Shown here: piece after piece, positions 17,103-41,652 of the stretch
How the letters are laid out: every line of letters begins with the position of its first letter
Position numbering within the stretch: position 1 is the first letter of the stretch
NCBI RefSeq assembly: GCF_023264895.1
Contig: NZ_JAHFUY010000033.1
Coordinates: 1-45,738 of the forward strand
Origin: Herbiconiux sp.
GTDB taxonomy: Bacteria > Actinomycetota > Actinomycetes > Actinomycetales > Microbacteriaceae
Direction of reading: 5' to 3'
Length of the DNA stretch: 45,738 nucleotides
Position numbers and translations under genes: made by a program
Notes under the pieces: model-generated
Database searches by the model: none
What the model saw: only the letters and a program-made list of their open reading frames with translations
What the model was told of the DNA's origin: nothing

Positions 17103-17135
17103 GCCGCCTCTGAACCACTTTCGCGCGGACATCGC

Positions 17136-17186
17136 CAAGCGTCGCGACAACCTCCCCGATATGGGGCCCGGTTGCCGCGACGTTTG
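17136..17186. repeat. 51-bp palindromic element (element A), relative of elements B and C
   Basis: The arms CAAGCGTCGCGACAACC (17136-17152) and GGTTGCCGCGACGTTTG (17170-17186) are complementary at 15 of 17 positions. An inner CCCC/GGGG stem (17154-17157 and 17163-17166) closes on loop GATAT. The right arm carries GCCGCGACGTTTG, also found in the 73-bp palindromes at 26113-26185 and 27178-27250. It lies between the exonuclease stop and the rpmE2 terminator. Only the core is shared, so it may be a degenerate copy. Confidence 0.72.
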
Positions 17187-17220
17187 TCGTTCTCCGCAGA
17201 AACATCAGCACGAACGACGA

Positions 17221-25512: not shown

Positions 25513-26103
25513 ATGTCCACCCTGTCCCTGGCCGCTGGCCGTCCCACCCTGGCTGACCGGCTGATCAGCCGCAGCATCCTCACCGACGTCATGCTCGTCG
25601 CCGGCGGCGCGGCCTTCGTGGGTCTCCTGGCCCAGGTCGCCATCCCGCTGTGGCCGGTGCCGATCACGGGCCAGACCCTCGCCGTGCTGCTCGTGGGCTC
25701 CACGCTCGGGGCTCTCCGCGGGGTCATCGCCATGGCGGTCTACGCAGTCGTCGGCATCGCGGGCGTCCCGTGGTTCAGCGACGCGAGCGCCGGCTGGCAG
25801 GTCGTCGCCGGCCCCACGGGCGGCTACATCATCGGCTTCATCGTGGCCGCGGGCCTCACCGGCTGGCTCGCCCAGCGCAACTGGGACCGCAAGGTGCTCG
25901 GCGCCTTCGCCTCCTTCACCGCAGGCACCGTCATCACGTTCGCGGTGGGCCTCCCCTGGCTCGCCGCCTCCCTCGGCCTCACCCTCGAGCAGACTCTCCA
26001 GGCCGGCCTCTACCCCTTCATCCTCGGCGGCATCATCAAGGCCCTCCTCGCGGCCGGCATCATCCCCCTCGCCTGGAAGCTCACCTCCCGCCCCAAGAAC
26101 TAG
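25513..26103 (+). CDS. bioY: Biotin transporter substrate-binding subunit BioY
   Basis: A 196-aa S-component with about six transmembrane helices. It contains the BioY-typical WPVPITGQTLAVLLVGSTLG (52-71) and GPTGGYIIGF. BioY binds biotin in the membrane and works alone or with an ECF module (BioM/BioN); neither is in the window, so it likely uses a shared module or acts alone. GAAGGAGA (25501-25508) fixes the ATG at 25513. It diverges from the ABC-F gene and is followed 10 bp after its stop by palindromic element B. Confidence 0.94.
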   Translation: MSTLSLAAGRPTLADRLISRSILTDVMLVAGGAAFVGLLAQVAIPLWPVPITGQTLAVLLVGSTLGALRGVIAMAVYAVVGIAGVPWFSDASAGWQVVAGPTGGYIIGFIVAAGLTGWLAQRNWDRKVLGAFASFTAGTVITFAVGLPWLAASLGLTLEQTLQAGLYPFILGGIIKALLAAGIIPLAWKLTSRPKN

Positions 26104-26112
26104 CCTCCGCCA

Positions 26113-26185
26113 GTTCAGACTCGCACACGTCGCGGCCACTGACTCCTCCGGGAGCTCAGCAGCCGCGACGTTTGCGTTTTCGAAC
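26113..26185. repeat. 73-bp palindromic element B
   Basis: The two arms match at 27 of 34 aligned positions with one bulge around a TCCG loop (26147-26150). The right arm contains CCGCGACGTTTGCG and ends CGAAC. The inner stem is CTGACTCC / GGAGCTCAG. It begins 10 bp after the bioY stop and ends 4 bp before the DUF559 stop, between convergent genes, so it could also terminate transcription. Confidence 0.88.
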
Positions 26186-26189
26186 AGCA

Positions 26190-27077
26190 TCACGGGCGCA
26201 CGACCAATCCGGCTCGATGGTGTCGCCCTGCCCACCGATGCTCTCCACGTGCCACGAGCCCCCGTACGACGTCGAGCACCAGCTCCGGCTCGAACATCAC
26301 TTGCGCGTAGCTGAGCCGCAGCACGAGGTAGCCGCGTTCCACGAGCGCGAGATCCCGCCGCTTGTCGTCGGCGAACGACCGCGCGTCGGAGTGCCACTCA
26401 CGCCCGTCCGTCTCGATGACGAGCCGCTCACCCACCACGAGGTCGACCCGCCCCACGCCGCTGATCCTCACCTGAAGCTGTACGCCGATCCCGACCGAGC
26501 GCAGCAGCAACCGCACGTGGGTCTCCAGCCCGGATTCGGCTCGAGGGTCCGCGCGGTCGAGGAGTGAGGCGTAGCGCACAGGAAGGCCTCGCAACACTTC
26601 TTCGAGCCGGCGCCGGGAGGAGAGCCCCAGATGGAGCACGGAGTCGAGAGTCGCCACCGCGTCTCGCGACGACTGGCAGACCGTCGCATGCGCCACAGCC
26701 CATTCGGTGGAGTCGACGCCCCCGACAGCGGGTGCGAGCTCGGAGAGCGGATGCGAGCGATGCAGCACGAGGCTCGGCGACGGGCCCGGCAGGTGCGCGT
26801 AGCGCCGAACCCGGACATGCCTCCGCGCATCCGGACTCGCCCAGACACCTCGGGCTTCAAGCGCAGACACGCAGCTGAGCGTGCCACCGGCACGAACCGC
26901 CTCCAGAGCACCCGGCGGCGCTCCGCTTGGCAGCGCGACCCACCCGTGGCGCACACGGATGAGCGAGCCCACCCGCACGCTGCGGGACACCTCAGCTGCG
27001 GGTACGCCCTGAAGTGCGAGCTCCCGGCACGACGCCACGCCGCCGAGGCCGGCGACGAGAGCGGCTGCGGATGACAT
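26190..27077 (-). CDS. DUF559 (Vsr-like) endonuclease-domain protein with AbiEi-like N-terminus
   Basis: A 295-aa protein. Residues ~1-50 (LGGVASCRELALQGV...RVRHGWVALP) look like the winged-helix start of type IV AbiEi-like antitoxin-domain proteins. The C-terminal ~115 residues match DUF559, a PD-(D/E)XK/Vsr-like nuclease fold: ESGLETHVR (181-189), VDLVVGERLVIETDGREWH (211-229, Asp212, Glu222, Asp224, His229) and DDKRRDLAL (237-245). All presumed catalytic residues are present. ATG 27077 is chosen over an upstream start that would run up to element C; GTGGGGGG precedes it. No AbiEii-like toxin is adjacent. The role is unknown; a nuclease acting on the flanking palindromes is one hypothesis. 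Confidence 0.82.
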   Translation of the reverse strand: MSSAAALVAGLGGVASCRELALQGVPAAEVSRSVRVGSLIRVRHGWVALPSGAPPGALEAVRAGGTLSCVSALEARGVWASPDARRHVRVRRYAHLPGPSPSLVLHRSHPLSELAPAVGGVDSTEWAVAHATVCQSSRDAVATLDSVLHLGLSSRRRLEEVLRGLPVRYASLLDRADPRAESGLETHVRLLLRSVGIGVQLQVRISGVGRVDLVVGERLVIETDGREWHSDARSFADDKRRDLALVERGYLVLRLSYAQVMFEPELVLDVVRGLVARGEHRWAGRHHRAGLVVRP

Positions 27078-27177
27078 GCCCCCCACGTTGCCCCACGGCT
27101 CGGCGACTCGGTCACCGTGCAGCAGATCAGTGGAACGCCCGCCTCCGATCGCTCGATGTGCAGGAGTGGATGGCACC

Positions 27178-27250
27178 GTTCAGAAACGCAAACGTCGCGG
27201 CATCCGTGCCCTCAAGGAGGGCGGATACCGCGACGTTTGCGCTTCTGAAC
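27178..27250. repeat. 73-bp palindromic element C
   Basis: The arms match at 31 of 33 positions plus a 2-nt bulge around loop CAAGG (27213-27217). The outer part GTTCAGAA...CGCAAACGTCGCGG is shared with B; the inner stem ATCC..GCCCT / AGGGCGGAT is different from B but self-complementary. It lies 100 bp upstream of the DUF559 start and 9 bp after the sufT stop, so it may also end the suf transcript. Confidence 0.9.
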
Positions 27251-27259
27251 GAGCGAGCG

Positions 27260-27589
27260 TCAGATGGAGAAGCCGAGGGCGCGCATCATGTCGCGGCCGT
27301 CGTCGGTGATCTTCTCGGGCCCCCACGGCGGCATCCACACCCAGTTGATGCGGAACTGGTCGACGACGCCGTCGAGCGCCTCCGCCGTCTGCTCCTCGAG
27401 CACGTCGGTGAGCGGGCAGCCGGCCGACGTCAGCGTCATGCTGATGACGAGCGCGTCCTGCTCCGCATCCCAGCCGAGGTCGTAGATGAGGCCCAGGTCG
27501 ACGATGTTCACGCCGAGCTCCGGGTCCATGACGTCTTTGAGCGCTTCCTCGATCTGGTCGTAGCGCGTCGGTTCGAGTGTCGTGACCAT
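27260..27589 (-). CDS. sufT: SufT-like DUF59/MIP18 Fe-S assembly factor
   Basis: A 109-aa protein of the metal-sulfur cluster assembly (DUF59) family: MDPELGVNIVDLGLIYD (21-37) and SAGCPLTD with conserved Cys58. It helps mature Fe-S proteins, working with the SUF scaffold. It is the last gene of the suf operon; its ATG (27589) is 4 nt after the sufC stop. sufS and sufU, which often sit between sufC and sufT in actinobacteria, are not present here. Element C follows 9 bp after the stop. Confidence 0.92.
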   Translation of the reverse strand: MVTTLEPTRYDQIEEALKDVMDPELGVNIVDLGLIYDLGWDAEQDALVISMTLTSAGCPLTDVLEEQTAEALDGVVDQFRINWVWMPPWGPEKITDDGRDMMRALGFSI

Positions 27590-41608: not shown

Positions 41609-41652
41609 CCGAAGGGGCCGTTCTCACATCACAGTGAGAACGGCCCCTTCGG
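41609..41652. terminator. 19-bp perfect hairpin, bidirectional terminator of pgl and rbpA
   Basis: CCGAAGGGGCCGTTCTCAC (41609-41627), loop ATCACA, and its exact complement (41634-41652). It sits midway between the convergent pgl and rbpA stops. No long T-run is present, as is common in GC-rich actinobacteria. Confidence 0.9.

Follow-up and report, generated by a model that had tools for sequence, protein, structure and literature searches.

Many bacterial genomes contain dispersed palindromes. In the window analysed here, a stretch of 45,738 nucleotides from Herbiconiux sp. (contig NZ_JAHFUY010000033.1), two such palindromes stand on either side of a gene for a nuclease-domain protein of the DUF559 type, raising the question of whether gene and palindromes belong together and, if so, what kind of system they form. 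A reading made from the letters of the window alone, hereafter the sequence-only reading, had likened the layout to REP palindromes flanking a RAYT transposase. The matching palindromes around these nuclease genes and the scattered copies elsewhere, found in Herbiconiux and several related genera, suggest that an enzyme and a repeat family of its own form a partnership not described before.

The first palindrome (element 1, 26113-26185) separates bioY from the DUF559 gene, two genes that converge on it with their 3′ ends; it begins 10 nt past the bioY stop codon and ends 4 nt from the DUF559 stop codon. The second (element 2, 27178-27250) stands on the 5′ side of the DUF559 gene, 10 nt past the stop of an FeS_assembly_P (sufT-like) gene, behind which stands a SufC-like gene. 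Both are unstranded and, as the sequence-only reading had it, 73 nt long. Its description of them as near-perfect is too strong for element 1, with 23 of 30 arm positions paired (73.3 bits with our family A model, R1), against 27 of 30 in element 2 (85.8 bits). It was right about the shared stretch CGCAAACGTCGCGG, which is exact in both arms of element 2 and in one arm of element 1 (1 mismatch in the other), and about the outer ends GTTCAGA/TCTGAAC present in both elements. Its spacing of about 100 bp to the start agrees with the start kept in relatives (MSSAAA.., bases 27077-27080); the longest open reading frame would begin at 27176, adjoining element 2. No gene other than the DUF559 gene lies between the elements, again as read. 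What it missed is a third, unstranded family A palindrome at 17125-17197 (73 nt, 23 of 30 arm pairs, 54.9 bits with R1), which has the end type GCGGACA and no DUF559 gene beside it. The window contains three 73-mers with at least 23 of 30 arm pairs, compared with none in 20 first-order Markov simulations, where the highest value was 22. An Rfam scan of 25900-27500 gave four matches, with E values of up to 5 and scores well under the gathering thresholds. Elsewhere in the window, a hairpin of 44 nt whose arms form 19 perfect pairs (41609-41652) has the look of an ordinary terminator.

The gene between the elements (26190-27080, minus strand) was characterized from its translation with Pfam, an AlphaFold model and Foldseek. 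The window protein scores above the curated cut-off for DUF559 and below those for MTES_1575 and AbiEi_4; among 62 relatives at E ≤0.01, MTES_1575 is found in 62, DUF559 in 60, AbiEi_4 in 29 and Vsr in 2. Its model (pLDDT 90, pTM 0.85) matches the AbiEi antitoxin 6y8q (E 1.1e-7, TM 0.52 of target) and the catalytic domain of I-Bth0305I, 3r3p (E 8.8e-4, TM 0.76 of target). A profile search likewise found 3r3p (E 4e-5), together with 3hrl. As modelled, the protein is an AbiEi fold joined to a nuclease domain like that of the homing endonuclease I-Bth0305I, which we take to be of the EDxHD/Vsr type. The D, E and D residues of the nuclease domain are identical in all 70 DUF559 proteins. Foldseek also gives weak-scoring matches to Toxoplasma mitoribosome proteins and human FASTKD4, in line with the Vsr-like RAP domains of those proteins. 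FASTKD4 is called Vsr-like in the title of PMC11879112.

DUF559 genes occur in all 16 Herbiconiux genomes, 70 in total. Our genus sample comprised stretches of ~8 kb around 69 of them (shorter at some contig ends) and the window for its own gene; a second sample, left after removal of 24 genus members from a set of 80 loci, comprised 56 relatives in other genera. Palindromes scoring ≥13 occur at densities of 1.05/kb at the 5′ gene edge and 1.21/kb at the 3′ edge versus 0.041/kb elsewhere in the stretches. The rest of the stretches is largely coding, and the fairer control is therefore the remaining called genes of these stretches. With these as reference, a strong edge palindrome accompanies 43/70 DUF559 genes versus 20/247 control genes in the genus and 21/56 versus 35/182 in other genera. 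Left and right palindromes matching each other at ≥40 are found at 19/70 DUF559 genes versus 0/247 control genes in the genus and at 14/56 versus 0/182 in other genera, or 33/126 versus 0/429 overall. When edge palindromes were ranked against opposite edges from other genomes or genera, their own opposite edge came first for 22 of 51 in the genus and 23 of 30 in other genera. The relative orientation of the two flanking copies varies.

According to our finder, 27 of the 70 Herbiconiux DUF559 genes lack a strong edge palindrome, a count to be read in the light of its centre-symmetric design, which misses gapped elements and makes its counts of palindromes lower bounds. At L079 (G006) it scores nothing, and a GACTTCGCCAC palindrome pair is visible by eye. 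Because of this blind spot we added a palindrome-free comparison of left and right flanks, in which 31/69 loci of the genus and 29/56 of other genera lie above the 99th percentile of cross-locus similarity. Protein and palindrome similarity are correlated over all pairs (rho 0.334, 0/500 permutations as high) and weakly so between different synteny groups (rho 0.165, 1/500 as high); each of the 14 strong palindrome matches between loci involves carriers of a family termed D.

At the window locus, between bioY and the suf genes, the DUF559 gene is flanked by family A in seven species, by family B in G001 and G009, by family C in G003 and G013, and in G006 by a fourth palindrome type seen by eye. 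Left and right flanks are alike beyond the 99th percentile of controls at 9 of the 12 occupied loci. Nine family A copies of the window's genome give a gap-free alignment of 73 columns, and their arms covary, with 88.1% of cells paired, 13 pairs changed on both sides and 0/500 shuffles as high in covariation score. A larger set (64 distinct elements in 117 distinct rows) gives 88.5% of cells and 25/30 pairs; this set was fitted to the model and hence leans towards it. With model R1, for which the candidates scored were capped at 150 per genome, the genome of the window yields 55 strand-matches, equivalent to ~28 elements because a palindrome is usually matched on both strands. Where the bioY-suf gene is A-flanked, the strand-matches number 55 (G000), 55 (G005), 52 (G012), 37 (G007), 35 (G015), 22 (G010) and 10 (G002); where it is B- or C-flanked, 27 (G001), 8 (G003), 6 (G013) and 3 (G009); with the fourth type, 20 (G006); and without a gene at the locus, 0 (G004), 2 (G008), 2 (G011) and 1 (G014). 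Among matches fetched as examples, those of G003, G009 and G013 are B- or C-like, and one in G001 is a true A element.

Simple gene calls were used to place 29 sampled family A copies: 21 lie between convergent genes, 5 between tandem and 2 between divergent genes, and 1 is intragenic; the distance to a gene 3′ end is <30 nt in 30 of 47 cases. Positions of this kind, in most cases no more than 30 nt from a stop codon, would suit ordinary bidirectional terminators or mRNA 3′-end hairpins inherited vertically, as would stems that have a T-run behind them on both strands (one is at the G004 sufT junction), and the D-family palindrome found 3′ of rimM in all 15 genomes examined. We nevertheless regard this explanation as improbable. 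It leaves unexplained why matching copies flank DUF559 genes only and why fixed-length families differ between lineages at one locus. Moreover, the GT:AC counts of stem arm mismatches (27:28 and 14:11, and 89:51 in a strand-biased A alignment) show no clear G.U preference, arguing against RNA-level selection on the stems.

A different explanation, unlikely in our view and yet the strongest of the alternatives, is that the palindromes are operators of an autoregulatory AbiEi-like protein, perhaps with a defence function, the dispersed copies being further binding sites. According to PMC7319586, AbiEi recognises a pair of 23-bp inverted repeats spaced by 3 bp, the AbiEi-related Rv2827c binds inverted-repeat pairs spaced by 13 bp, and both autoregulate through such repeats in their promoters; a palindrome with 30-nt arms 13 nt apart resembles such a pair. 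Many DUF559 genes do carry a palindrome directly upstream of their start. However, the matching copy is often at the 3′ end of the same gene, the dispersed copies are mostly at 3′ ends and not in promoters, and repression does not need a conserved nuclease active site.

Tandem family A elements with the end types GTTCAGA and GCGGACA were seen at L027 (1485-1557 and 1567-1639), an arrangement like that of REP clusters. Long palindromes with ends like TCGCGAC..GTCGCGA, located away from the DUF559 gene of their stretch (L060 7905-7975, L082 6126-6199 and L117 5597-5659), are perhaps a further family.

The other families differ in their distribution. Family B, searched by exact pattern, occurs 7 times in G001, 3 times in G009 and once in G014, with 0 in the other 13 genomes and in controls. 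Family D, found beside a DUF559 gene at rimM-trmD, is present in 15/16 genomes (controls 0) and therefore does not track its gene. Outside the genus, the palindrome flanking a DUF559 gene matches 15 places in the genome of Enemella dayhoffiae and 14 in that of Salinibacterium soli, both flanking copies counted. These copies are nearly constant in length (67 and 71 nt, with 3 Enemella copies matching over 57 nt only), and their outer arms and loop are conserved while the inner arms are variable and mostly paired. Among 12 dispersed Salinibacterium copies, 9 are convergent, 2 tandem and 1 divergent, with a 3′ end within <30 nt in 13 of 20 cases; the 13 of Enemella comprise 4 convergent, 6 tandem, 2 divergent and 1 intragenic (8 of 14 cases <30 nt). 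By eye, edge palindromes of Salinibacterium, Agrococcus and Acidipropionibacterium (L247, L260, L258 and L264) have different arms and a common loop like GGATAnTCC/TATCCA.

The linkage of AbiEi/DUF559 nucleases to matching, dispersed palindromes is well supported. The sequence-only reading had supposed a nuclease-linked palindrome family, and this idea has gained ground and widened, now taking in several palindrome families, several genera and dispersed copies; a genome-wide scatter of palindromes unassociated with DUF559 genes, which it had named as evidence to the contrary, is not what we found. In the open-licence papers searched, we found no link of DUF559 or Vsr-like nucleases to REP-like palindromes.

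The history of individual loci bears on how gene and palindromes are connected. The idea of a recent mobile insertion at bioY-suf has to be abandoned because 12 of the 16 species already have the gene in the orthologous position. The other finding that the sequence-only reading had named as speaking against it, vertical descent of order and elements in all relatives, agrees with the order in these 12 genomes but not with the joint exchange of palindrome and gene in one lineage or more. G001 joins G009 in the tree of window-locus proteins versus G005, whose gene is A-flanked, in the tree of neighbouring DNA, and AU tests on groups named after the trees had been seen reject the alternative grouping each way (p 5.4e-7 and 5.1e-5). 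The palindromes of G001 follow the gene tree, not the neighbour tree. Gene and palindromes at this locus were therefore replaced together, or sorted from an old duplication. The true A element in G001 fits the replacement of an A cassette there.

Where the gene is missing, single palindromes are found. At the sufT junction, each of the four genomes without the gene has one: a decayed B copy in G014 (by eye), one in G004 that by eye resembles the family beside a DUF559 gene elsewhere in that genome (L112), and other or unsure kinds in G008 and G011. At rimM-trmD, one D palindrome follows rimM in 6/6 genomes without the gene, and in the 9 readable cases with the gene there is again one palindrome, on the rimM side, mostly with no match on the trmD side. 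This shows that the rimM-trmD palindrome outlives or precedes the gene, with no evidence there of two palindromes collapsing to one. That the gene-less palindromes have shrunk was considered and set aside as weak, the size ranges given by the same finder overlapping (33-55 nt without the gene; 34-78 nt beside it, 2/9 under 40).

Comparing G012 with G015, 10 of 12 family A elements of G012 could be placed (L170 and L171 are unplaced). Seven correspond one-to-one, 1 is absent and 2 correspond to a single G015 element; most family A elements are therefore old, with occasional gain or loss, and no exact insertion junction was found. The pair corresponding to one element brackets a CW_binding_2 gene at L169 (2601-4211), its members alike in 71 of 73 letters by eye, and G015 has a single element and no gene (L179 10013-10085). 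At another element, a luciferase-like monooxygenase gene has been gained or lost (L177 3140-4590 in G012 versus L186 in G015). Genes other than DUF559 can therefore sit between two copies, and the palindromes may be general exchange points. Both cases would be expected if REP-like palindromes were spread by other machinery and the DUF559 genes were passengers settling at or between them by recombination. We hold this to be doubtful, slightly more so than the operator explanation, given the matching flanks at a quarter of DUF559 genes against none of the controls, a palindrome family that accompanies its gene in exchanges, and the absence of Y1 transposases, the one type searched for, from 15 of 16 genus genomes.

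We favor, with a probability of roughly one half, the explanation that gene and palindromes together make up a single genetic module, REP/RAYT-like and of homing type, run by an unrelated nuclease. The AbiEi-like half would recognise the inverted arm pair of its cognate palindrome, which the homing-endonuclease-type half would nick or cut in or close to the middle, be it a duplex, a cruciform or a hairpin. If the break is repaired from a copy in which palindromes flank the gene, gene and palindromes would end up at a site with a single palindrome or, alternatively, replace an older version of the cassette. The small palindromes would spread slowly as non-autonomous copies, chiefly into gene 3′ ends, and recombination between flanking palindromes would remove the gene and leave one palindrome. 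What the data show is the linkage, the matching of left and right palindromes, their dispersal, gene and palindromes changing together at one locus, lone palindromes where the gene is absent, the folds and the conservation of acidic residues; binding, cutting, copying and mobility are inferred.

Counting for such a module are the matching flanks, the edge ranks and the palindrome-free flank comparison; the dispersed families that match the gene's flanks; the conflicting trees of G001, whose palindromes go with the gene; the single palindromes at the four gene-less sufT junctions; the AbiEi fold and I-Bth0305I-like domain with their invariant D, E and D; the inverted-repeat binding of AbiEi proteins (PMC7319586); and the absence of Y1 transposases from 15 of 16 genus genomes. 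The element-gene-element arrangement of G012 facing one element in G015 also counts for it, the gene there being CW_binding_2. Several observations count against it: the lack of an exact insertion junction; the 7 of 10 placed elements common to both genomes; the family A strand-matches of G006 and G001 despite the other palindromes of their own genes; the rimM-trmD palindrome present with or without the gene and, beside it, on one side only; the Herbiconiux genes without a strong edge palindrome and the near-ubiquity of family D; and the weak cross-locus correlation and varying flank orientation. On balance, there is about an even chance that this is a previously undescribed class of selfish system, in which an AbiEi-domain/homing-type nuclease recognises, maintains and spreads its cognate ~70-bp palindromes and is exchanged as a palindrome-gene-palindrome cassette, a RAYT-free system convergent with REP/RAYT and comprising many independent pairings of enzyme and palindrome in Actinobacteria. 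An enzyme class other than RAYTs is tied to palindromes in several genera by left-right identity, dispersal and joint exchange, and DUF559/MTES_1575 nucleases of this kind, which have no function in Pfam, gain a concrete candidate target. The origin of 'orphan' palindromes becomes directly testable, with many natural enzyme-site pairs at hand.

Among known systems, the AbiEi antitoxins of the AbiE type IV toxin-antitoxin systems share a similar fold over 183 columns (6y8q) and belong to a family that binds inverted repeats (PMC7319586); unlike them, the protein here is fused to a nuclease domain. An operon with the AbiEii nucleotidyltransferase toxin (DUF1814) is absent among the four neighbours scanned at the window locus (ABC-F, BioY, FeS_assembly_P and the SufC-like ABC protein).

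The REP/REPIN elements with their RAYTs (TnpA-REP; REPtrons and TIRtrons) are described in PMC3733652, whose text makes no mention of actinobacteria. There, REP elements are mostly just past stop codons and between convergent genes, and the enzymes tied to dispersed palindromes are RAYTs. As in those systems, an enzyme gene is flanked here by copies of a dispersed palindrome, and enzyme-specific palindrome families have copies at 3′ ends and between convergent genes. The palindromes themselves differ, measuring 20-40 nt in REPtrons (PMC3733652) and mostly 50-78 nt here, and an unsystematic look noticed none of the GTAG/CGTC tags. So does the enzyme, Y1/HUH in REPtrons and an AbiEi fold with an I-Bth0305I-like nuclease domain here. 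Our transposase search, confined to the Y1 type (PF01797) and to the 16 genus genomes, gave a match in one of the 16 (G004, which has no family A match). A RAYT as driver is accordingly rejected for the other 15, in keeping with the RAYT-less layout that the sequence-only reading had proposed. The CGTC-tagged REPs are likewise dispersed palindromes at gene 3′ ends without an adjoining Y1 transposase, but they are shorter, tagged and reported to lack a dedicated enzyme (PMC3733652).

Homing genes of the I-Bth0305I type share with the DUF559 genes a related catalytic domain (3r3p) with conserved acidic residues, and a gene content that varies among relatives at a fixed site. Classical homing genes split their recognition site; here, whole palindromes stand at both edges, an AbiEi-like domain is added and there is no intron or intein. 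Failing REPtron membership on the transposase, the module would nevertheless work like both systems, resembling a REPtron in its layout and a homing endonuclease in its catalytic domain.
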